In this document: one piece after another, positions 19,502 through 47,000 of the stretch
Position numbering within the stretch: the first letter of the stretch is position 1
Layout of the letters: the number at the start of each line of letters is the position of its first letter
From: Glandiceps talaboti
Taxonomy: Eukaryota; Hemichordata; Enteropneusta; Spengelidae
DNA length: 64,000 nucleotides
Direction: 5' to 3'
Assembly: GCF_964340395.1 (NCBI RefSeq)
Contig: NC_135561.1
Coordinates: 10,773,232 to 10,837,231 of the forward strand
Notes under the pieces: generated by a model
Told to the model about the DNA's origin: nothing
Seen by the model: the letters and a program-made list of their open reading frames with translations, nothing else
The model's database searches: none
Translations under genes and position numbers: made by a program

Positions 19502-22500
19502 GTGCATTGTAGGTTTGCATGGGTATTGACTCCCACATTGTGAGATTCCTTGCAATTGTTAAGTATATAGACACAAAAATAGTGTCAGTGGTGAAAAAAG
19601 CCAAAGGTACAGATCTACTTGCAAAGTATAGACTCACTTTGAAAGAGTTCACAATGTGTTTCAATCCCAGGTCATCACATTGTATAACCTTATCAGTGGA
19701 TCCACAAGGATACCACAGGATTACTCTTTTGTTCTAGACCAAATTTTTTTTAGCTCTACCAGAAAACTGTTTTCACACCTAGAGTTTAATCCTAATCGGA
19801 CATTGCCCATCAATTTTTAGCTCTGCTGTCAGTGACAGCTGGGTTGATTCTCTGTTGCCCATTGTCCATCAGTTTCATTTGGGGAAAATAAAGTGTCTGT
19901 AATGAAAGAAGACCCAAACAGAGACTTGTAAGTGCTATAAATGTCTTTATTTTTCTGTTTCAGAATTGTGTCTTTTGGCAGTAAAAATAATTCCAGGCGG
20001 TTTAGTTCCCCAGGCCTTGTAAACAGCGATGAGTTGTCATACGGTACCCTAGATGAAGAGAGTGCCAAAGGTGACCATTGTCACAGTAGTCATGATCTTT
20101 ATAAAGTGGACAAAAAAGCAAGAATTAAACTTATTGTAGCAAGTATATTATGTCTGGCATTTATGACTGCAGAAATTATAGGTAAGTTGTCTTAGTTTTA
20201 TTTACTATATCTTTGCTAGTGTTTTGTCAAGGGTGGTATTAAAGTAGGTAAAATCTACCTGTGAGTTTCATAATTCTATAGTAATTGTTTTTTTTAAACC
20301 AAGTTTCCCTTCAAATTCACAACACAAGGTGTTTCTACTAGATTTCACACTTTCATTACTACCTTTTTAGTCACCTGAAAAAAAAAGGGGGGGGGGGGGG
20401 GGGGACTATTACGATATGTCATTTCTCAAACATGCAATATCTGATTTCTTTCAAACCTGACACAATGTTGACATGTCGTATGGGACTAGGGAACTTCACT
20501 TTGTTTTGCAACATATGCAAATTTGACTGAATGGTGGCCATGTCTGTAGTTAATCAATAATTACTGCATAACTCAAAAAATGTACCAGGTAGAGATCCAT
20601 TCAAGTGGCTTCTTCCCCATATTATCAGGTTCAAGCTTTCATTTGAGACATTGACCCTTGACCTTGACCTTCAGGATCAGTTATCAAAATCAAGCCATTT
20701 CTTGCCTATCACAGACACCTTGTAATATTGATATATTACCAATATCAAGTGCATAGGTAGTATAGAAGAAACGAAATATAGACAAGCAGTTCTTTTGGTG
20801 CTTTATTCACTTTTATTGAATGGCAGCCATATTTGTAGTAAAAAAAATCAATATATTATTACATAACTCAAAAGCTTTAAAGGCTTCATTCAAGTGTCTA
20901 ACCCCATACATGAAAGTTGTCTTGTACTAGACACTGACCTTTGCTCTGTACCTTGACCTTCAGGGTAGACTATCAAAACTTAAGCCATTTCTTACATGCA
21001 TCTTGCAGACACTTTATAGCAATTATGTGTGACCACTGTCTTTTAGATCATGTCTACAGGTAATACAGAACAAGATGAATATACATCATGCATTACCTTT
21101 GGTGCTCGTGTCATATTTTACTGAATGGTGGTCACATTTACAGTGAGCAATCATTATTTACCACATAACTCAAAAACTTTAATACATATAGACTTCAAGT
21201 GTCTACCCCCATATTATCAGGTTTAAACTTTCTTTTGAGATCCTGACTATTGACCTTGACCTTCAGTTATCGAAACCTAGCCATTTCCTGCATTGTCACA
21301 GCCACTAATTGTTATACAATGTATTTATTTTAGTTGCCAACATTTTTTTTTGTAAATCAATCAATAATGTTGGGTTCTTATGTAGTGCTTTCCCACGCAA
21401 TTATTACCCCTGGCTCAGATCAGAATGGCACAACAGCCCGTTTAGTCTTCCTCAACTTCCCGAGGAGCATACAATCCATTGCAGCCGTTTAAGCTCATAG
21501 GATTAAGCCTTCACATTGCAACCGACATCCTACCAGGTCCCCAATTATACAGCTGGGTTGACTGAGGCACAGTCATGGTTCAAATCTTGCCCAAGAACTT
21601 TAGCCACTCGGAAACAAACAGCAGGCAGCGACAGGGCTCAAACCTACAAGCTGTAGATTCCAAGCCGGTCACGCTCACCGTTCATCCATTATGACTCCAC
21701 CTATATGGGCATGATGCAGCAATGGTCTAGCATTAACTTATTCACAGACAGCAGTATTAATGTTGTATCAATGTCTTTACGCTTGATTTATATAATTATT
21801 AATCCTGAAATTCAAGTGTGGTTTCCACGTGGACAGTGACTAAGTGCTTGAATGTTGAAGTAGGGGAAACTAGAAAATCCAGGGGGAAACATGCAAATTT
21901 GTTTGATAGGATCAAACTGATCGTCATCCTTCTTACAAACTGATCTGATTAATTTTTAATCAAACCCAATCGATGCTTGGCTGGTTTGAACTCGGACTAC
22001 TGTTAGTAAGAGACACACAAGGCAGTCTACTCAGCTATTGACAACCCCATATTGGTATATGGGGTTGTACTTTCTGTCATTCTTTTTGGTGAAAATAAAA
22101 TGAATCATATGGTACATGTTGGGTCATCCCAAATCGATGACAGTCTCACTTTTTGATCCAGTATAAGCAACATCTTGTCTCATATAGTCACAGACTCACA
22201 GCTGCATTTAAGTCATAAAAGTGTCATATATTATGTTTATAACTGACTGATTGACTATACAGCAGTCTATTCTAGGAAACATACTTGTAAGTAAATAGTA
22301 ACCTTGCCCTATACTGCACTTACATTTAACACTTTTCGTAATCGATCAGAACACAACGGTATACATCATAGCTTACATGACTGAAATACCAACAATTTTC
22401 TGACAACCATTTGATTTATAGCTTTTTATAACAATGGTAGTGAAATTAAATTCAGAAAAGAAAAGTAACACATGTAGGATTTGAACCCAGTGATGTCCTC

Positions 22501-24796: not shown

Positions 24797-27700
24797 TGTA
24801 TGTATGTATGTATGTATGCATGCCCAAATGACTGGCATGATCATATAGTGATACAGAATTCTGTATGTCTGTCAGTCCGATTGTCTGTCTCTGGCTATCT
24901 GTTTGTCTGTCTTTGTATGTCCATCAGTTAGTTTGTTGCAAGTGTGCTAACATTACATGTATGTCAAAAAACTATATCCCAGTTTATTGTTGTTATTCAC
25001 TCTACAGGTGGTTACTTATCTGGAAGTTTAGCTATAATGACAGATGCAGCACACATGTTGACAGACTTTGCAAGTTTTCTCATTAGTTTATTTTCAATAT
25101 GGGTGGCATCAAGACCACCTACAAAAAGAATGAACTTTGGATGGCATAGAGCAGGTAAGATTTCATGCAGAGTTTTATTATTTTAATTATATGGAAATTG
25201 ACTTAGAAATCAGTCATGCTCAAAAGTTTGAATGTCACTGTAAAAGATGCCAGGGCTATGACTTCATCACTTTGTGTATTTTCTTTTTTAACCATAATAT
25301 ACAATATAACACTACCAGTCACATCATAGTTATATGCAATGATATCAGGTTAATGACATCATCAGTTTAAGTGTAGTTACAATACAATATCATCAGTTTA
25401 AGTGCATGGAGTTACAATACTATGACATCATCAGTTTAAGTGCATGGAGTTACAATACAGTGACATCATCAGTTTAAGTGTAGTTACAATACAATGATAT
25501 CAGTTTAAGTGTATAAAGTTACAATACAATGACATCATCAGTTTACGTGTATATGGTTACAATTCAATGACATCATCAGTTTAAGTGTATGCGTTACAGT
25601 ACAATGACATCATCAGTTTAAGTGTATATAGTACAATACAATGATGTCATCATAGAAACCTCTATTACTAATGTTCTAGAATGTCTTAACACTAAGTATT
25701 TTTTCAAAAAGATCAATGAGTGTTTTTTTTAGCGATGATTGGTTTAGTTTGTGACAATGAAAATTCAGTTTGACCCCAAAGTATATTAAATAATTTGAAA
25801 AGTTCATCTGAAAACAGAACAAACAGTCGCAGCTGTTCCTGAAATTAAAGAAATTTGACCCTGATAACATTTACTTGGTGTTTCAGAACTGTTTATTCAT
25901 GATAATAACAATTAGGTTACATATTTGTCTGTGATTAATTATAGCAGTAGTTATATTTGGTATGCTAATTTGCATATTGTACTTATCATATGCTATATAT
26001 GATGTGTGAGGGCGCTGTTTAGAGATGCACTGCAAAGAAATTGATCATTGTATTTCCACTCCATTGTTTCTGATACGTCACAACTCTCTCAGGTGGAACC
26101 CAATTATGACATTTTTTTAATGTAATGGATAGGTTGTCGTTATGAATCATTATTTGGCATTGAAGTGTAAACAAAAAGATATTTGTGAAAAGGTTGTAAT
26201 TTGGTTAATTGGAAAATGAAGTCGTGCGGAACGTCAAGATAAATGTCGAAATGACATTTTGATAGCACCTATGTTACTGCCTTGCAAGGACGACAGTATC
26301 GATTTCAATTGCGTCACAAACTGACAAATTAAAAAATTGTACAAGTGGCGGTTTTTGACTGTGCGACTTGATAAAATATACTTTTTGAATAATTAATTGG
26401 AATGGAATACTCAACAAACGCTTCCTTCAACAGACTTTAATACTTCATAGTATTTGCTTAACGTGTGGTTTAGCTGATATGACATGAAATTAATTTCTAG
26501 ATGAAGTATTATCGACATATGTTGTTGACCAAACTTCAAAAATTATGTTTGAAACTTAAGAATGTGGCAACAGGTATAAGAGGACTGCCACTCCAGAAAA
26601 TGAAAAATTTGAGTCCTGGAGAAGCCATTCCATGATTTCACATCACATAGATTTTGCAGGATTGCCAAAAAACACCAAATTGAAACTCTATTTCACCTCT
26701 AGTATTCTTACACTGGTCCACTGTTGCATCATGGGACTTAGCAGACATACATATTTATTATAGATGCATACTGAATATTCATGACTTTTGAGTTCTACCT
26801 TTACATAAATAGTCATGAATATTCAATGTGCATCTAATAAGTATATATATATGTCTGCTTTGTACTCCAGAACCTAAAGTTTATGAAAATGCATCTCTTT
26901 CCTGGAGTGGCGTAGATGGTATGCATTCATATATAGCATTTCTAACTTCTCAGTGACAGTTAGACTACTTAACATTTTTAGATTCACGAAAATATTGCAC
27001 TTCGTGAATCTAAAAATGTTAAGTAGTCTAACTGTCAATTATAAAGACTGAAAATGTACACACTACAGGATATCCTGAATTGACAGTTGAATCTTATGTG
27101 ACACCTAAATTAGAAACAAAAAAATTATGGCAGTCCTGTATGAGTAACACTGACATGATATGCCTACATTACTTGAGAATGATTAGGCGACACTGTCACA
27201 CCAATCTGGGGAATTATTTCAAAATAATCAACAAGTGAAATAATATATAATGTGATAACAGAAAGGTAACTGAAGAGGGAGGCACCATAGACTAGTATGG
27301 TACTAGAAGAAGAATGTAGGAATAACCCAATGTACAATTCTTAACTGTGAGGGCGCTGCGTATGCCCTGCTAGCAATGGAGCGAGGACAATCCACAGGTG
27401 GTTGTGTGTTGGTTCTTTCAGCTTGTTAGCTATCTCTTTAAAAGTATCAAATACACATGGAGTGCTTACTTCCTTTTCAAAAGGGTCATGAATATACATT
27501 GTTCATCTAATAAATATGCATTTTTGCTAAAACCCATTGGGCAATGGTGTACTAAATGCACAGTCAGGACAATAGAGGTGATAATGTTTCAATTTGGTGT
27601 TTCTTAGCAATCGTGCAAAATCGGTGAGATGTGAAATCATGAAACAACTTTCTAGAACCCAAAGTTTATAAAAGATTTCTGTATTTCCTAGAGTGGTGTT

Positions 27701-30700
27701 CACCCTTTCAAAACAAGCCATATATATAGGTATCAAGTCAATGCACACCTTCATTGATGATAAATTAGAAAGGTAATTCTTCAAATAGTTATTATTCAGT
27801 TGTCTTACTCAAAAGTAATATTGATGTGATGTCTTTATCTTTATTTTCATCTTCGAAGAAATTCTTGGAGCTTTGGTCTCTGTTTTACTAATCTGGGTTG
27901 TGACCGGTATTTTAGTTTATCTGGGAATTCATCGAGTTATTGCCAAGGATTATGAAATAGGTGCAGAAATAATGCTTATCACTGCTTCCTGTGGTGTGCT
28001 GGTCAACATTGTGTAAGTATACTGTTTGATAATTTTACCATATTCAGGTTCTGGGAAAAACAAAAGTTTTATATAGTTTGGACACTAGGAGTGCTATTCA
28101 GAAGTGAGGGCCACAGTAGAGGTGTATTTTGAAATGTCGCCATTTCTCAGTATTTCAAGGCTAATGTCAATGGCAAGCTTAGCCAGTGTGAAATGTTCAG
28201 CTTATTTGTTTGTTTAATATTTTTTTCACAATTAACACCTGTTAACCTGTTAACCTGTACCATTTACATATCTGACTAGACTGGCACCATGTACCAGTAC
28301 CTTTTTTTAGTCATAATGTTGAAATGTTTTGCGTTTGTTAATCATTCTTAGTTTTGTGAAGAAAAATGTCTTCAAGTTTTATCAGCTTTTCCCAGTTTAT
28401 TAGTAGTCTCCCAAGGTATACAAGTTCACCTGACTGTTTAGCAATCACTCAGTCTGGTTATCAGTTCACATAAATGAACACAGGAGGTGAATGTATATAC
28501 CTTGGGACTCGGGAGACTACTTGTAACTTTTAAAAATTTTAGAATATTTTTTCATTCACTCAGTCTGGTTATCATATCACACAAAAGAGAAACAGTTCTT
28601 TTTTTTAATAGACAAAGCCCATAAGTTCGTGCAGGGTACAATGTAGATTAATTTGTGACCGGCTGCCCGGGCTGCCTCACAATGATATTGTAGATAGCGC
28701 CCTCCGCGTGGAGAATGCACTTAACATATAGAATGTGCATGCATAGTCAATATGCGCCACAATGCATCCTTGGGTAAAACCACCCCCCCAAAAAATCACA
28801 TAGTATATAGGATGTGCATGCGTATTTGTCATTGAGCCACTACGTGTTTATCTAGACATACACAGTTTAATTGCCAATCATGTCATGTATGTTAATTATT
28901 TCATTGATTGCAGTATTGGAATAGTGTTACATGACTGTGGACATGGACACACACACAGTTTGTCAGGTGGACACAACCATGGTGACAGTGGTAACCATGG
29001 ACACGGTGATTCACATAAAAAAGCACAAAATGTGAATGTCAGGGCGGCATTTATACATGTGTTGGGTGATCTCTTCCAGAGTGTAGGAGTTCTGACGGCA
29101 GCATGTGTCATTTACTTTAAGGTAAGTCAACTATCGGCTAGCTAACACTGACACAGACTATATACTCATGGACATCATACAACAGTGGCAAGTCAACTAT
29201 CGACTAGCTAACACTGACACAGACTATGTTCTTATGGACATCATACAACAGTGGTAAGTCAACTATCGAATAGCTAACACTGACACAGACTATAACATTA
29301 TTGTAACATGTTTCAATAAGCTAGCAACGAACGTTATTGGTGTTATACTCACAGTAGGGTGGCTCACTGTAGTAGTGACTTTTTCTGAATTTTTGGCACA
29401 TTCTGGGACTTTTAATGTTTACACTACCTTGATTACACTAATTTACAGGGTGATTATATCCACATAAACAAAATATTGAATATTGTTACAGAAGTTCAGT
29501 GTTTAATTATCTCATAATCTGTTTTCTCTTTGTTGTTACTTACAGCCAGAATATGCCATAGCAGATCCCATCTGTACGTTTATATTCTCTGGTATTGTAT
29601 TGTTTACAACATTAAACATACTTAGGGATGCTGTCAGTGTACTTATGGAAGGTAAGTTAGGGATGCTATTATTGTACTTATGGTAGGTGAGTTAGAGATG
29701 ATATCAGTGTATTCATGGAAGTTGAGTTAGGGATGCTATCAGTGTATTCATGGAAGTTGAGTTAGGGATGCTATCAGTGTACTTATGGAAGGTGAGTTAG
29801 GGATGCTATCAGTGTACTTATGGAAGGTGAGTTAGGGATGCTATCAGTATACTAATGGACTATAAGAAATCACACAAAATGTTACAACTTTGGCAACGCT
29901 GTCTTGACAAAATAATTCAGTTGTAGTTAAAGTAAAAATTACCCAATATCTACACTCTATTTGAACATGTTCAAATTCTTCATCTCCACAACCAATCTTT
30001 ATACTTCATGTTAAGGTTGAGATACATCTTTGTTGGCTTACCCAATGTTTCACAATAAAGACAAGATCCAACTCTAAGTGCAACATGCTTTTATATGTTG
30101 ACTCTATATTTGAAGTTGTGATTTTGATGAGCACTTTTGACATTCTTGGGAGGGAACTCGTAAAAACACAATTATAATTAATACATTTTCATTTTGTTAA
30201 TGTTCTTGATCTGTTCACAGCTACACCAAAAGGTTTTGATTTCAGTGAAGTAAAGTCATCACTGAGTGCAGTAGATGGTGTCAAATCAATTCATTCATTG
30301 CATATATGGTCTTTAACCATGGGAAGAAATGCCCTATCTGTACATCTTGCTATAGGTAAGTTAGACCTAAAAAAAAATTGTATGTTTCTGGTTACCCAAC
30401 CACACCAAGTTTTCACCCTAAACTTTTTTTTACATATCCGAGAAAAAATAAGATAAAATTGCGATAATTGTGAAGTCTCATGAGAAATAATGGATGTGGA
30501 AACTGACATCAACTTAAAAAGACACTAATTATGAAACTGTTCTTCCAATCTCTAATGGCTTTACATCTGATGAGAAGACACCAATAACACAGAGGCCATT
30601 TGGAAAACAATGGAAAACCTGAACTAGACACTCACACATGAAAAAAAGTATAATAAAATGAAATAAAAAATCTACCTACCCCACCTATTTTAAAATTGAA

Positions 30701-31529
30701 TGTAATCGAAACCACAATTTTTTTTTACTCCTAAGTTAAGAACATATTTTACAAACATTGAAAGTTCACTTCCTTCTTATTTTTGTCCAATCATCATTGG
30801 CCACAAAGTCTCCTCAATCTTCAATTAACCAATATCTCACCTGCCGATTACCCAATAGTATGTCTCCTTCTGAACCATCTGGACAGTGTCACCAATCAGC
30901 ATTCACCACCTAATTTTCAGATTAAAGGTACACTGGCAGTAACTGAAGTACTATATTTTTTCAATCAGACAACCAACAGACATTATACATGTTAGTTAGA
31001 GGTCAATTTTGACCATAAGTACCGTAGTACAGGTTGAAATCGTTCACTTGTTAGGGGCAGTTGATTTTATGGTGTGGACCCAAAATTAATTTGATAGGAT
31101 TTATTGTACCATCATGTGTGTACAGCTACACTTAAATATATTTACTCACAGGTGATTCACTACTCTTGCATGGTGTACGATATTACAAGTAAGACATTAT
31201 ATTTAACAAACAGTTTCAAAAAATGGTCCAGTTGCAGCTAGTGAAGATTTTAAATGGAATTAAATATGACTATTATAAGGTGAATTATTGGAGCTAAGTT
31301 ATTCAGTTTTATCTATTGGTTTGGTTTTCGGTACATTTACCATTTCTTTTCTGTTATCATTGACATAGAATCTCCTACTGAAGAAAAAGAGGTTGATCCA
31401 CAGGCTGTGCTGGAGGAAGCCGCTAGAATACTACGAGAAAGATACGACCTCCACGACACAACAATACAAATTGAAAACTATTGCGAAGGCATGGAAACGT
31501 GTTCACAATGTAAAGAGCCCATGGACTAA
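19458..31529 (+). CDS. SLC30A2: Zinc transporter, ZnT2/3/4/8 clade (cation diffusion facilitator)
   Basis: Proton-coupled zinc exporter that moves cytosolic Zn2+ into vesicles or out of the cell as a homodimer. Exons: 19458-19501 (candidate), 19964-20181, 25008-25154, 27859-28012, 28914-29121, 29546-29651, 30221-30355, 31369-31529. Phases join without a break, giving 390 residues, inside the family range. Features: HCH motif at about 53-55; six membrane helices between about 70 and 285; zinc-site HxxxD pairs H103/D107 (TM2) and H236/D240 (TM5); His-rich loop about 194-222 between TM4 and TM5; cytosolic domain with [10 protein letters not shown]-terminal CSQC at 382-385. The ending ([12 protein letters not shown]) is closest to ZnT2/3, whereas HIWSLTM and GWHRAEILGA recall ZnT8, so the exact vertebrate paralogue is uncertain and this may be pre-duplication. 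Two exons have their donors amplified into intronic repeats. Confidence 0.92.
19964..20181 (+). CDS. SLC30A2: ZnT exon 2: cytosolic N-terminus and TM1
   Basis: Preceded by TTTTTCTGTTTCAG, followed by GTAAGT. It encodes a Ser-rich tail, GDHCHSSH (the HCH zinc-linking motif known in ZnT8) and the first half of TM1 ([18 protein letters not shown]). Confidence 0.9.
20388..20404 (+). repeat. poly-G run in ZnT intron
   Basis: An A-run followed by about 17 G. Length is probably polymorphic or misassembled. Confidence 0.7.
20520..21310. repeat. three diverged units of about 290 bp in ZnT intron
   Basis: Each unit has CTGAATGGTGGYCA, AATCAATAATTA..CATAACTCAAAA, CAAGTGTCT..CCCCATATTATCAGGTT and TTGACCTTGACCTTCAG, then AAGCCATTTCYTGC and a CACAGACAC block. 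Units start near 20527, 20817 and 21118. The TGACCTTGACCTTCA core is a nuclear-receptor-type half-site pair. Confidence 0.75.
21361..21700 (-). mobile_element. tRNA-derived SINE-like element
   Basis: On the minus strand a tRNA-like head is visible: a box-A-like GTGAGCGTGACCGGCTTGG and a box-B-like GGTTTGAGCCC about 45 bp later. It is followed by a core containing CTTGGGCAAGATTTGAACC, CCTCAGTCAACCCAGCTGT and GGGGACCTGGTA, and a tail with AAAGCACTACATAAGAACCC. This resembles conserved-core SINEs of marine invertebrates (possibly the MetaSINE group, from memory). Ends and target-site duplication are not resolved. Confidence 0.65.
22465..22535 (-). repeat. tRNA-like sequence (tRNA pseudogene or SINE head)
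   Basis: On the minus strand, TTGCTCAGCTGGTTAGAGG (box A) and GGGTTCAAATCC (box B) have tRNA spacing, flanked by ACATGT on both sides. D and T stems have mismatches, so a functional tRNA is unlikely. Confidence 0.6.
22540..24640. other. ZnT intron interior, nothing recognised
   Basis: AT-rich intronic DNA between exons 2 and 3. Only short open frames without homology. Confidence 0.5.
24646..24818. repeat. composite (TATG)n-(TG)n-(TACG)n microsatellite
   Basis: TATG units flank a TG block and a self-complementary (ACGT)n block at about 24730-24764. Tyr/Val/Cys/Met frames on both strands are repeat by-products. Confidence 0.95.
25008..25154 (+). CDS. SLC30A2: ZnT exon 3: TM1 end, TM2, HxxxD
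   Basis: Acceptor TTCACTCTACAG, donor GTAAGA. It encodes [20 protein letters not shown], which contains the first zinc-coordinating His/Asp pair, and ends in the conserved NFGWHRA. Confidence 0.95.
25345..25655. repeat. tandem array of about 37 bp with TGACATCATCAGTTTAAGTG
   Basis: About eight units in the ZnT intron carry TGACATCATCAGTTTAAGTG followed by TGGAGTTACAATACAA. Units vary by small indels. The TGACATCA core differs by one base from a CRE (TGACGTCA). Confidence 0.9.
26587..26911. mobile_element. foldback MITE with CCACTCCAG ends
   Basis: The left end GCCACTCCAGAAAATG and the right end, inverted (GCCACTCCAGGAAAGAG), form terminal repeats. Inside, AGACATACATATTTATTATA..GATGCATACTGAATATTCATG is followed by its inverse. 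A related right half recurs at about 27480-27700. Non-coding, within a zinc-transporter intron. Confidence 0.7.
26954..27037. repeat. perfect 37-bp inverted repeat with 10-nt loop
   Basis: Arms at 26954-26990 and 27001-27037 are exact reverse complements (37 of 37) around AATATTGCAC. As RNA in the intron it would form a perfect hairpin. Perfect identity of the arms indicates recent origin or gene conversion. Confidence 0.95.
27480..27700. mobile_element. partial copy of the CCACTCCAG element
   Basis: Shares GGTCATGAATAT..CATCTAATAAATATGCA, AGAACCCAAAGTTTAT and TTTCCTAGAGTGGTG with the right half of 26587-26911, and CACCAAATTGAAAC in inverse with its left half. Diverged. Confidence 0.5.
27859..28012 (+). 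CDS. SLC30A2: ZnT exon 4: TM3 and TM4
   Basis: The acceptor is unusual (CATCTTCGAAG) but the phase and the join [14 protein letters not shown] match the family exactly. Donor GTAAGT. It encodes [11 protein letters not shown] and the loop to TM4. Confidence 0.93.
28402..28522. mobile_element. short inverted-repeat element, AGTAGTCTCCC ends
   Basis: The left end AGTAGTCTCCCAAGGTATA is inverted at the right end as AGTAGTCTCCCGAGTCCCAAGG, with AGGTGAA/TTCACCT inside. About 120 bp, non-coding, in ZnT intron 4. Confidence 0.6.
28914..29121 (+). CDS. SLC30A2: ZnT exon 5: His-rich loop and TM5
   Basis: Acceptor TTGATTGCAG, donor GTAAGT. The exon carries about ten His in CGHGHTHS...GGHNHGD...HGHGDSH, then [18 protein letters not shown] with the second HxxxD. 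Its donor begins a 66-bp tandem repeat. Confidence 0.95.
29122..29295 (+). repeat. 66-bp tandem repeat starting at a splice donor
   Basis: Units begin exactly at the exon 5 donor: GTAAGTCAACTATCG at 29122, GCAAGTCAACTATCG at 29188 and GTAAGTCAACTATCG at 29254, each followed by TAGCTAACACTGACACAGAC. About 2.6 units. Confidence 0.95.
29546..29651 (+). CDS. SLC30A2: ZnT exon 6: TM6
   Basis: Acceptor TTGTTACTTACAG, donor GTAAGT. It encodes [20 protein letters not shown] and [13 protein letters not shown]. The last 30 or so bases of the exon plus the donor are the first unit of a 35-bp tandem repeat that continues into the intron. Confidence 0.95.
29620..29860 (+). repeat. 35-bp tandem repeat copying exon 6 end plus donor
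   Basis: The unit is donor, then TTAGGGATGCTATCAGTGTA and CTTATGGAAG. The genuine exon end is the first unit. Donor-equivalent positions are 29652 GTAAGT (real), 29687 GTGAGT, 29722 TTGAGT, 29757 TTGAGT, 29792 GTGAGT, 29827 GTGAGT. Confidence 0.95.
30221..30355 (+). CDS. SLC30A2: ZnT exon 7: cytosolic domain
   Basis: Acceptor CTGTTCACAG, donor GTAAGT. It encodes [11 protein letters not shown]...[17 protein letters not shown], the conserved start of the C-terminal ferredoxin-like domain. Confidence 0.95.
30368..30733 (+). mobile_element. MITE-like element, AGACCTAAAAAA family, copy 3
   Basis: Inserted 12 bp past the ZnT exon 7 donor. It shares the interior with copies at 4183 and 5535. AAGTT occurs on both flanks (before AGACCT and after ACTCCT), a possible short target-site duplication. 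Confidence 0.75.
31369..31529 (+). CDS. SLC30A2: ZnT exon 8: C-terminus and stop
   Basis: Acceptor ATTGACATAG. It encodes [20 protein letters not shown] and ends CSQCKEPMD then TAA. The C-terminal CxxC matches the zinc-linking Cys pair of the clade. Confidence 0.93.
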
Positions 31530-32190
31530 ACACGACGACAGGAAGTGAAATATCAGATTTGAATATATCCAATAGAATGCAATATTGCCGAAGGTTAATG
31601 ATGTTCAACCATACTAAAAATGGCATCCCGGCTAAATCAATACATATTTTAGTACAATCTGACCACTGGTGGCTCCCTTTACACTACGCTTCACCACTGC
31701 CTCAGTTGGGTCAGCTATAAAGTAATGACCACATGGTTAAAATTCCAATTTAATAAAATTTTTGTCAAAGAATCATTGAACATTCCGAAAGGAAATAGAA
31801 GTGAAGATTTATGAAAGTCATACTAGTGATTTAGAGAAAAGAATTGACAAACTAACTTACATGTATGTTATGGTGGCAACACACAAAAGTCACATTGGTA
31901 AAAAAAAAACTGAAACAAAATGACACCCACATATGCTGAGGTTATGTGTATTAGTGGTGTGTAGTAAAATTGCCAAACTGTTCCAAAGATATAATTGGAT
32001 TGAAGAGCGCCATCAGTGGTCAGAATGTGACATGTCAGTACATTCTGTAAACCCCTTAAGTTACTGTTGTTGTGCATACTTGTCTGAAGCAGTCTATTAC
32101 TGAAGACGAAAGTCAACTAAACCCCTTAGGTTGTTATAGCATTGGTGTTTCTGTCCTTGAAGTCAGTTGAATAAATTAAAATAAATGTTT
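31530..32190 (+). other. SLC30A2: Probable 3' UTR of the zinc transporter
   Basis: Two overlapping-spaced AATAAA signals (about 32170-32175 and 32180-32185) lie some 640 bp past the stop; another AATAAA at about 32741 is possible. The true cleavage site is not visible. Confidence 0.5.
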
Positions 32191-38400: not shown

Positions 38401-39340
38401 ACATTAGCTGCATTAGCTGCAACTTGACCATTTCTTGAAATTGCTTTCAGTCATATAATGACTTACTTCTCAAAATTGTTCACCATGAGGTGTATTAAAT
38501 CACAAACAGGTAAACCAGTGTGTAGCTGTACACATAACACGGCGTGAAAATGTAATGACTTTGTATATTACATAACAGATGCTAAAATTAGTGCCTCCAT
38601 TGAATTTATACACAAAAAATAACCATTCACAGAACACACCATAAAATAATTCATGGCAATCTCTGTGACTGTATAACCTCACTTGTTATTGAATATTCAA
38701 AGACCACTACCATATATAGGTATCAAGACAAGTCAAAACTAACACGAAAAAGATTTAAAACCAGGCTTCTGCTCTAGATTTCAAACTATCACTACACTGT
38801 GTACGGATACCATCAGCCACTAATTAACAGCTATAATGTCTTTCAATATACATTCATCTTTGGTTACTTGATGAAAAAAAAATGTCACAGTTGTAGCCAG
38901 TATCTATTTCATCAGCCTCAACATCTACAGACTAAGTTTTGATTAATTTACACTACATATTGTGTTCTTGGAAATTAGGTATATTAGGCACACACAAAAA
39001 AAGAATTGTTTCTGGTCATCACTTAAAATACCCTTGTGTCAGTCTGTTTTTCGTGTTTGTCCAGCCCATGCTAAGGAGCCTAACTTAAACTTTAACCTAC
39101 CCCTACTACTTAGCTTAATTTAAAAAAAATACACAATTATTAAATATTTCAATGGGGTTTTGTTGAAAATTGAAAGGTGAAGATTTATCACTGGGTTTGA
39201 TAAAAACAAAGTTACTCCACTAAATTTTATTGCATAGTTTGTAAATATAAATTTTAACTTTATTTTGGCAGTCTTTTTGTTTGTATTATTATTCAATGAA
39301 TGAATGAAACAGATACAGTGTATAACTACTATTGGTTCAC
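38401..39340. other. Intergenic, nothing recognised
   Basis: AT-rich; short open frames only. Confidence 0.5.
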
Positions 39341-39345
39341 TACCA

Positions 39346-40615
39346 AACATGTTACTAGGGAGTCAAATCATACTACCAAGCATGCTACTAGGGAGTCAAA
39401 TCATACTACCAAGCATGTTACTAGGGAGTCAAATCATACTACCAAGCATGCTACTAGGGAGTCAAATCATACTACCAAACATGTTACTAGGGAGTCAAAT
39501 CATACTACCAAGCATGCTACTAGGGAGTCAAATCATACTACCAAGTGTGCTACTAGGGAGTCAAATCATACTACCAAGTGTGCTACTAGGGAGTCAAATC
39601 ATACTACTAAACATGTTACTGGGGAGTCAAATCATACTACCAAGCATGCTACTAGGGAATCAAATCATACTACCAAGCATGCTACTAGGGAGTCAAATCA
39701 TACTACCAAGCATGTTACTAGGGAGTCAAATCATACTACCAAGCATGCTACTAGGGAGTCAAATCATACTACCAAACATGTTACTAGGGAGTCAAATCAT
39801 ACTACCAAGCATGCTACTAGGGAGTCAAATCATACTACCAAGTGTGCTACTAGGGAGTCAAATCATACTACCAAGTGTGCTACTAGGGAGTCAAATCATA
39901 CTACCAAGTGTGCTACTAGGGAGTCAAATCATGCTACTAAACATGTTACTAGGGAGTCAAATCATACTACCAAGTGTGCTACTAGGGAGTCAAATCATAC
40001 TACTAAACATGTTACTGGGGAGTCAAATCATACTACCAAGCATGCTACTAGGGAATCAAATCATACTACCAAGCATGCTACTAGGGAGTCAAATCATACT
40101 ACCAAGTGTGCTACTAGAGAGTCAAATCATACTACCAAGTGTGCTACTAGGGAGTCAAATTATACTACCAAGTGTGCTACTAGGGAGTCAAATCACACTA
40201 CCAAACATGTTACTAGGGAGTCAAATCATACTACCAAGCATGCTACTAGGGAGTCAAATCATACTACCAAGTGTGCTACTAGGGAGTCAAATTATGCTAC
40301 CAAGTGTGCTACTAAAGTCAAATCATACTACCAAGTGTGCTACTAGGGAGTCAAATTATACTACCAAGTGTGCTACTAGGGAGTCAAATCATACTACCAA
40401 ACATGTTACTAGGGAGTCAAATCATACTACCAAACATGCTAGTAGAGGGCCAACTCATACTACCAAACATGCTACTAGGGAGTCAAATTATGCTACCAAA
40501 CATTCTAGAGGGCCAAATCATACCAAACATGCTACTAGGGAGTCAAATCCTTCTACCAAACATGCTATTTTAAATCATACTAGGGGGTCAAATCTTAGAA
40601 CATCACAACACAAGT
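39346..40615. repeat. 33-bp minisatellite, about 37 units
   Basis: The unit is ACTAGGGAGTCAAATCATAC followed by TACCAAGCATGCT; variants end CATGCT, CATGTT or GTGTGCT. Because 33 is a multiple of three, two plus-strand frames stay open for 348 and 437 codons, giving TRESNHTTKHA and MLLGSQIILPS repeats. Variant order shows nested duplication: units 3-8 recur as 12-17, and the GGGGAGTC/GGGAATC pair at units 9-10 recurs at 21-22. The last units decay. It lies just past the ALDH8A1 3' end; I regard the frames as non-coding. Confidence 0.95.
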
Positions 40616-44000: not shown

Positions 44001-47000
44001 CAAGAATGTATCATAGATACCCTTTTGTACAAAGAGTCTACTGTTGCAGAGACAGATTTCACCTTGGTTGGCAAAGCAAGATTTGACAGTGGTTGCTACA
44101 CACTCGTCCAGTTTGACATCATCAAACACAATACATGGGTTCTTTCCACCAAGCTAAAAAAAATAATTAAAACGTATCTTATCTTGAAAAATGAATTTTT
44201 TACATTCACAGTACTAATAGATTAATAGACCTGTTGCCGTTTTCAAGATGCAATGTTCATCTCTCCATACAACGCCATGTATTCTGTATGTGAAGGGGTT
44301 TTTATACGTACTAGTCATATGGGGCTGATTGTCACCCGACCGTACCCAAGGTCATTACTGGGACAAGCCATTAAAGAAGCAAGTCCACTTGTTATCAAAG
44401 AGTACCAATATTTACACATGTGATGATGGGCTCTTACATAACACAAGTAAACAGTGTAGTTCACAGCGTAAGATCATTTCTAAGGAGTGGGTCAATTGAG
44501 GCAAACCTTATCTCCGTCTTATATCAGTTGTTATCAATTTATTAGGCTATTATAAGTAACACTACAAACAGCTTTAGAGATGCAAACAACTTTTATGACA
44601 CCCGTTTTCGTCAGGCAAGCCCGCGGGTTTGTTGCACTTGGACCATTAATGGCTTGTGAATGTCATGTTTACCAGTAAAAACCTTCTCTGTCATTGATGG
44701 TGTTTAGTCTTGGTTCTATAAAATCACTCACAATTAAAGTCATTTCATGATGAAAATGTTATAATTTCAAATGTCATAAAAGATAAAACAAACCTAAGTA
44801 TAACAACGTAAGTGAAGTGGATTCTCATGCAATGCATCTTGGGAGTGGAAAATTGACTATCGATGATAGGAAATACAAATATAGCAACCTTTTATAATAA
44901 TCATAAATATGTAAAAGTGACATCACAGGTCATCAGCTGCCACAGTTTGTATTGAGTGGTTATAATAAATGATAATATCTAATTATATTCACATGTAAAT
45001 TGATCATCTTACCTCTAAAGACAATTTCTTACAGTAAGGAGCACTATCTTGTCGTATCTTCTCAGCTGTCATTGTACTACCAGTAAAAGAGATCATCGGT
45101 ACATCAGAGTGTTTTACCAAGGCACTACCAGCTCTAGGGCCAGTACCAAATACAATATTAACAACACCTGGTGGTAAACCTGTACAATGCAAAATATAGA
45201 ATCTGAATTTAACAATAGCCAATCCTAGGACCAGTACCAAAGACAATGTTAACAACACCTGGTGGTAAACCTACAAAATGTTAAAATACAGAATCTGAAT
45301 TTAACAATAGCCAATCCTGGGACCCGTACCAAACACAATGTTAACAACACCTGGTGGTAAACCTGTAAAATGCAAAATATGGAATCTGAATTTAACAACA
45401 CCCAATCCTAAGACCCGTACCAAAGACAATGTTAACAACACCTGGTGGTAAACCTGTAAAATGCAAAATATAGAATCTGAATTTAACAATAGCCAATCCT
45501 GGGACCCGTACCAAACACAATGTTAACAACACCTGGTGGTAAACCTACAAAATGTTAAAATACAGAATCTGAATTTAACAACAGCCAATCCTGGGACCAG
45601 TACGAAAGACAATGTTAACACTTGAACACCTGGTGGTAAACCTACAACATGTAAAATATGGAATCTGAATTTATACAACAGCCAATCCTAGGACCCGTAC
45701 CAAAGACACTTAACACTTATCTTTTCAAGGAACACTACGGGGTTGTGGAAATTATATTGTCGTTTTAGCCTTGTAAACTTTGTAATCGTACGTAGTTTCA
45801 TGTAAATTGTTGTCATGTTAGCCTTGTTTACTTTGAAATATTTATCATTTTAGCCATGTAAAGTGTTGTAATTATATTTAACATGCACAAACCAGGTTAA
45901 CCAAAAAATTATGGAATATATACTCTGGTCATTCTACATCACGACAACACGCATCTATGTCACAACAACGCATGTTTATGTCACTGATTCTCCTGTGTTC
46001 GATATGTGAGTCAAAATGTTGAAAATTTCCATTTCTTTCCCTAATTTTTTGTTCATATTACTGGTGATAGTATAATTATATTATTCCCAAATGTTTTTAA
46101 TTCACCTGGAAAAAAACTCATGACCTAAGGGTTGTCACTACTCATCTAGTGACTCGTAGTGACTCGTAGTGACAAGGGTCCCTTAGGTCACCCATATTTT
46201 CATTGGCTGAATGGAAAAAAATATTGGGGAATAATATGTACTTCTCATTTTATCCACGTATCTACATTTTTAGGATTGTAAAGAGCACTAAGACATAGTA
46301 GGTGAACTTTTTAAGAAATTAAATTATTATTTATTATAAATGTGAAACTTTCAATTTTTAATTTTAGCACACTAACCTGCTTCATTGAGTACTTTTCCCA
46401 GCATCCATGCAGTCACTGATGTCATTTCACTAGGTTTACAAACACATGTGTTCCCAGCTGCAATACACGGTGCAATCTTGAAGGTCAATAGATATAGGGG
46501 TAGATTCCATGGACTAATAAGACCTGCTACACCAATTGGTATCTGCATTGTATAGTTCAGGCACCCCCTGTCTTCCATCAGAGTTGAACTAGAAATGTAC
46601 CAATGCAAGAATGTGTGTTCATAGAGTCAGGATTCATAGTTTCAAATGAAAGTTTCTACTCACAGAATAAAAATAAGTGGGAAAGCAAATCTCAAATTTG
46701 TCGCTGATATTGGTAAAGGTTTACTCTAATTTGGGAAAATCTACAATTTCAGACTGATTTTACAATACGCTAAGACCATTGTCACCATTATTTGGAGATG
46801 ACTGTGATCAGATCATTCTGTTATCAATGGTGGACTATTAAAACTGGCTTTGAAAGTGATGAGAACTGTTTTCCTTTTTTCATCAAATTACCATAAATTC
46901 AGTCACATACGAACATATCAAACAGTTTACACCTTACAGAAAGACAGAGGAATGAAATCTAACTTACCAGTTGGTCTTATATAAAATTGATGAAGAAAAG

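Follow-up and report, generated by a model that had tools for sequence, protein, structure and literature searches.

Minisatellite arrays that run across exon boundaries have been named mirages and are described at both 5′ and 3′ boundaries in amphioxus globin genes, after earlier work on Adh3 (PMC3087553). The genes concerned are Adh3 and the globins BflGb6 and BflGb9, to which a mirage in PGBD5 was added and troponin C cited, again in amphioxus (PMC3902484). The Adh3 data and reverse transcription-polymerase chain reaction (RT-PCR) of the globins suggest that mirages leave regular splicing undisturbed, and the globin arrays have homogenized interiors and diverged edges (PMC3087553). Here we describe a 35-bp array in a 64,000-nt stretch of genomic DNA (called the window throughout), in which the end of an exon of a ZnT zinc transporter gene is repeated, together with its splice donor, into the following intron. 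The structure of this array fits that of the amphioxus mirages (PMC3087553, PMC3902484). Very probably, it is a mirage-type minisatellite that is tolerated as a by-product and has no special function, the exon-proximal donor being kept in use by exon definition.

The seven exons of the gene, when joined, give one open frame throughout with a product of 383 residues. This product contains the Pfam domains Cation_efflux (E 3.3e-47) and ZT_dimer (E 2.7e-16), and its best match in the PDB is ZnT8 (7y5g, E 2.3e-108), followed by SLC30A3 and SLC30A4. The domains and the matches identify it as an SLC30 zinc transporter, which we take to belong to the ZnT2/3/4/8 group. The original prediction had placed the array in exon 6, whereas its host exon is the fifth of the seven coding exons in our model, in which the start of the first exon is uncertain. 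At the join of this exon to the next one (29651 to 30221), the alignment to ZnT8 is free of gaps. The features of the gene and the array are as follows:

19941-20181, 25008-25154, 27859-28012, 28914-29121, 29546-29651, 30221-30355 and 31369-31530, plus strand: coding exons of the ZnT gene, open as a spliced frame.
29546-29651, plus strand: exon of 106 nt, fifth of the seven found, with array unit 1 as its last 30 nt.
29652-30220, plus strand: intron of 569 nt that holds the decoy donors; the next exon starts at 30221.
29622-29656, plus strand: array unit 1, 30 nt of exon followed by GTAAG; frame-keeping donor with its GT at 29652 (GTAAGT).
29657-29691, plus strand: array unit 2, with a GTGAGT decoy donor at 29687; holds the in-frame TAG common to all decoy isoforms.
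29692-29761, plus strand: array units 3 and 4, with mutated donor cores TTGAGT at 29722 and 29757.
29762-29831, plus strand: array units 5 and 6, which share one sequence, with decoy donors GTGAGT at 29792 and 29827; two of 35 letters differ from the exonic unit.
29832-29866, plus strand: array unit 7, the edge copy, with 6-9 differences from the other units and its donor lost (CTATAAG).

Direct reading gives seven units of exactly 35 bp each, in register over 29622-29866 and starting at 29622, 29657, 29692, 29727, 29762, 29797 and 29832. Tandem Repeats Finder (TRF) reports the same array at 29622-29859 with a period of 35, 6.8 copies, 90% matches and a score of 371. Both thus bear out the predicted 35-bp tandem amplification of an exon end and its donor in a ZnT gene, and the donor cores, namely GTAAGT at 29652, GTGAGT at 29687, 29792 and 29827, and two units with TTGAGT, are all as first described. 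The count of about six repeats into the intron also stands, although the seventh unit with its lost donor had not been singled out. A chance origin is rejected. Twenty dinucleotide shuffles of the whole window contained zero to two arrays each (TRF rows with a period of at least 12 and a score of at least 50) with a top score of 65, against 371 for the ZnT array and 23 rows, some of them overlapping, in the real window.

The array shares several properties with the described mirages. It spans the boundary, as 30 of the 35 nt of its first unit are exon and the six further units are intronic. Many copies, but not all, carry a splice signal: an intact GTGAGT donor is found in three of the six intronic units. 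Units 3 and 4 differ at two positions, and the pairwise differences over all units range from 0 to 9 of 35 letters, including substitutions private to single units. The interior is homogenized and the edge copy, unit 7, is the most diverged one; this pattern, like the identity of units 5 and 6, is what turnover within an array would produce and resembles the amphioxus globin mirages.

Splicing at the decoys at 29687, 29792 and 29827 would add 35, 140 and 175 nt, respectively. As had been predicted, none of these is a multiple of three and a TAG follows early. In the spliced model, each decoy isoform gains 11 residues and then stops at a TAG located just upstream of the second donor. Because this codon precedes the first decoy donor, all three isoforms end at the same place. 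Decoy use results in a truncated protein frame, and the corresponding transcripts would probably be cleared by nonsense-mediated decay.

We compared the strength of the donors by their predicted pairing with the U1 end and by a weight matrix of vertebrate frequencies. The first donor was originally thought to be the best match to the consensus. It does have eight of the nine consensus letters, compared to seven of nine in the intact decoys. However, its predicted U1 pairing of -10.1 kcal/mol is equalled by that of the intact decoys (-10.1, -10.2 and -10.2 kcal/mol), and its weight matrix score of 11.8 is exceeded by two of the three (11.0, 12.5 and 12.5). Only the mutated decoys pair poorly (-3.5, -3.5 and -1.4 kcal/mol). 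Splice-site strength is therefore rejected as the protector against the intact decoys. Of the earlier suggestion that either order or strength may protect the splicing of this exon, order is the better half. Position and exon context, not strength, should be protective.

The ZnT frame demands the exon-proximal donor, and this frame together with homology points to use of the first donor. Normal splicing would then be kept because, across the exon, this donor is the closest one to the acceptor of the same exon, as in exon definition. The limit for exon definition lies at introns of about 250 nt, so that the introns flanking the array-bearing exon (424 nt upstream and 569 nt downstream, from the model coordinates) would be long enough. 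In the other mirages described below, the exon edge, placed by family match and open frame rather than by full gene models, is likewise found at the exon-proximal copy. Exon definition favours the sites that are nearest each other across the exon, whereas under intron definition, according to the finding of Reed and Maniatis, the member of a competing pair that is proximal to the intron is favoured (PMC9225289).

The array may have originated when a 35-bp segment lying across the exon/intron boundary was duplicated in tandem, and slippage or unequal exchange would then have extended the array into the intron. Coding constraint would hold the exon copy, and the intronic copies would turn over. 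The ZnT array would be one among many in a genome with minisatellite-rich introns, some of which span splice junctions.

The same type of structure recurs in other genes. The window itself contains a second case, on the acceptor side of an exon:

45134-45708, minus strand: acceptor-side mirage in an ALDH8A1-like gene, with 91-bp units that join the 3′ end of the intron and the 5′ start of the exon.

With its exons joined by hand, this gene has 2-aminomuconate 6-semialdehyde dehydrogenase as its best PDB match (E 4.8e-100), and ALDH8A1 is the name that we presume for it. The frame-keeping acceptor, with its AG at 45181-45180, is the last copy. All five upstream decoys keep their AG, and two of them score above the frame-keeping acceptor and three below it.

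In order to sample the assembly (590 Mb in 47 contigs), exon loci were fetched regardless of repeats, the best-scoring ones first, from 12 of 12 ALDH, 30 of 85 ABC and 30 of 78 myosin matches. Some of these 72 loci overlap or are paralogues. Three were dropped (L019 and L020, which form one 1330-residue open frame, and L057, a match with six stops), and 21 of the 138 remaining edges had a score below 5 or no site, leaving 117 boundaries (57 donors and 60 acceptors). At seven of the 117, an array whose terminal unit includes 8-61 bp of exon runs into the intron. Five of these are donors (L014, L048, L058, L072 and L076) and two are acceptors (L055 and L067); they fall on ALDH and myosin exons and on one ABC exon. 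Over nine mirages, i.e. these seven, ZnT and the ALDH8A1-like gene, 45 of 48 decoy copies retain their GT or AG (47 copies scored by the weight matrix and ZnT unit 7 read directly). At L014, the end of an ALDH exon with a 68-bp unit of which 61 bp are exon, all eight scored decoys agree with the authentic donor in each of its nine letters and show 0-4 differences in the surrounding 30. The authentic site is clearly stronger only at L067 (8.9 vs 6.3), whereas each of the other eight mirages has one or more decoys with a weight matrix score as high as that of the authentic site or higher.

Two of the sampled ABC exons, L042 and L048, located about 84 kb apart on contig C2, have a 51-bp array of about 4 and about 22 copies, respectively, at the same donor sequence, and the array may therefore predate the duplication of these genes. 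L042 is not counted as a mirage because its array contains too little exon sequence.

Several observations weigh against the ZnT array being a mere tolerated by-product whose first donor is the one in use. Terminal units cross the junctions seven times in the sample, whereas pseudo-junctions placed in these flanks give an expectation of 2.58 (Poisson P 0.017, with boundaries treated as independent, as in all P values here). The ratio of 2.7 has a bootstrap range of 0.97-5.40, and a wholly indifferent process would not predict such an excess. Six settings of thresholds and loci gave seven crossings vs 1.7-2.9 expected (P 0.0019-0.029). Furthermore, only one haplotype is represented, as the assembly matches the ZnT region at a single place, and the use of its first donor is deduced from frame and homology.

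Such an excess would be expected if splice junctions were preferred seeds of minisatellites, owing either to breakage linked to replication or transcription or to the AG/GT signals themselves. We consider this explanation possible but doubtful. In its favour, the junction-spanning arrays exceed the local null 2.7-fold, with the same direction in six of six settings, and without seven of the overlapping or paralogous loci the figures are 7 of 104 vs 2.24 expected. Genome-wide, three AGGTAAGT motifs at 30-60 nt spacing match 3097 times, compared to 1054 times for the reversed pattern. However, these matches are units, not arrays, so that one array yields many of them, and the single AGGTAAGT motif is already commoner than its reverse (30 vs 16 in 300,529 gene-rich bases of the window and the loci). 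The sample is small and covers three gene families, the bootstrap range is 0.97-5.40, and detection may favour arrays that hold a constrained copy. Total coverage by minisatellites (period of at least 12) also speaks against seeding. Outside the sampled boundaries it amounts to 12-14.5% at 100-1300 nt and falls gradually, without a spike, to 7% at +3, 6% at -3 and 1% at -60 inside the exon. As coverage at the junctions is about half of the intronic plateau, the junctions are not hot in this respect, and an enrichment of total coverage is rejected. In summary, the genome has active minisatellites, by which junctions are hit and tolerated; an extra bias at junctions is possible, but unproved. 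The bolder proposition that minisatellites are seeded at splice junctions almost three times as often as at neighbouring intronic sites, leaving about one in 17 exon boundaries with an array of closely similar decoys, and that accuracy is achieved by exon-definition proximity and not by strength, appears rather unlikely to us.

It is improbable that the decoys are a maintained switch to truncated, decay-prone ZnT transcripts, for instance in response to zinc. Regulated unproductive splicing would agree with the U1 pairing of the three decoys, which matches that of the first donor, and with the early stop that all decoy isoforms share. However, three of the six ZnT decoys are dead, and the occurrence of the same structure, at donors as well as acceptors, in ALDH and myosin genes and at one ABC exon fits a genome-wide mutational process better.

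We find it very unlikely that the array reflects the birth or remodelling of an intron, with the junction copies supplying splice sites that shift or create introns. Such a model was put forward for the amphioxus globin introns (PMC3087553), and the gain of introns through tandem duplication of exon segments that contain AGGT is described as demonstrated (PMC3443670). The likeness of our case to the latter is a duplicated segment with a splice signal. However, the intronic copies of the ZnT array all lie within one existing intron, the unit contains a donor only, and the ZnT model has no new intron.

An assembly artefact is the least credible explanation: tandem repeats are a well-known cause of misassembly and their number differs between two lancelet sequence versions (PMC3902484), but the ZnT units carry private substitutions and differ pairwise at 0-9 of 35 positions, arrays of many periods are present at many loci on a first look, and an assembly of 47 contigs, the largest seen being 36 Mb, suggests long reads.

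Several other repeats were observed in and around the ZnT gene and among the genome-wide matches. One of them lies at the donor of the preceding ZnT exon:

29124-29294, plus strand: 66-bp array of 2.6 copies, found by TRF and direct reading, which adjoins the donor GT at 29122-29123.

As this array begins after the GT and contains no exon sequence, it only abuts the junction and is rejected as a strict mirage. A second GTAAGT occurs in the third copy, at 29254; it lies 132 nt downstream, a distance divisible by three. An inverted repeat in a ZnT intron, at 26947-27044, has arms of 44 nt that are 93% complementary and a 10-nt spacer; four weaker inverted pairs in 26628-27644 may mark a small mobile element. 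At 39339-40567, a 33-bp array of 37.5 copies is located inside a 437-residue open frame, where it reads as an 11-residue repeat. The open frame may be due to chance, given that 33 is divisible by three. Five arrays were inspected among the listed triple-AGGTAAGT matches, all on contig C1: L082 looks like a mirage at an exon end, L080 and L083 may be mirages as well, and L079 and L081 are ambiguous. All five were left out of every count.

The identity of the host was derived from contig C40 of the assembly, which we take to belong to the same animal. Its 51,222 bases form a concatemer in which a 15,435-bp mitochondrial genome, C-rich and with 53% G+C, is repeated about 3.3 times. In the codon count, which covered seven genes (some of them read over at their ends, and without COII, which its motif failed to find), AAA occurs twice and AGG four times. 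The tRNA-Lys loop is CTCTTAA, and the ATA codons fall at what we presume to be conserved isoleucine positions. These traits can be compared with published codes. In Balanoglossus, ATA encodes Ile, AAA and AGG are absent and tRNA-Lys has the anticodon CUU, whereas in Cephalochordata ATA encodes Met (Table 3 of PMC3121625). The traits of C40 are as for Balanoglossus and unlike those of Cephalochordata, so the host is probably hemichordate-like, and amphioxus, to which the literature had pointed, is rejected as the host of these mirages. In the gene order of C40, CYTB lies between ATP6 and COIII. Two hemichordates have an nd5-cob neighbourhood (PMC2697986), and the position of CYTB speaks against a close match to these two.

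The ZnT case is a further instance of the mirage class, and its interest lies mainly in the host lineage and in the apparent frequency of such arrays. Reports of mirages in hemichordates were absent from the matches listed in our literature searches, outside which many subscription papers lie, and the term “tandem repeat” does not occur in the main text, as far as available, of a hemichordate genome paper (PMC11175523). The listed matches include a C. elegans paper that deals with minisatellites in introns and alternative splicing (PMC4039745). The earlier mirage reports cited here concern a handful of amphioxus genes. If our sample holds, a second deuterostome lineage has mirages as a matter of routine, and these represent natural experiments, in which near-identical splice sites stand in series in one transcript. 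With such arrays, the intron-centric and exon-centric proximity rules could be told apart without the need for engineered constructs, and the raw material that they supply for new introns can be measured.

Compared to the amphioxus mirages, the ZnT unit of 35 bp is shorter than the 150-160 bp of the globins and within the 10-72 bp of Adh3 (PMC3087553). The amphioxus cases are backed by RT-PCR, whereas ours were read from genome sequence, with a sampled frequency of 7 in 117 boundaries. Unlike in the amphioxus reports, the host is probably not a cephalochordate, and the host lineage is no structural requirement of the class. With the duplicated competing splice sites studied before (PMC9225289), our arrays share near-identical sites that compete in cis, but they are natural and multi-copy, one of them having 22 scored decoys. 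The site that appears to win here is the exon-proximal one, which fits the exon-centric and not the intron-centric rule (PMC9225289).
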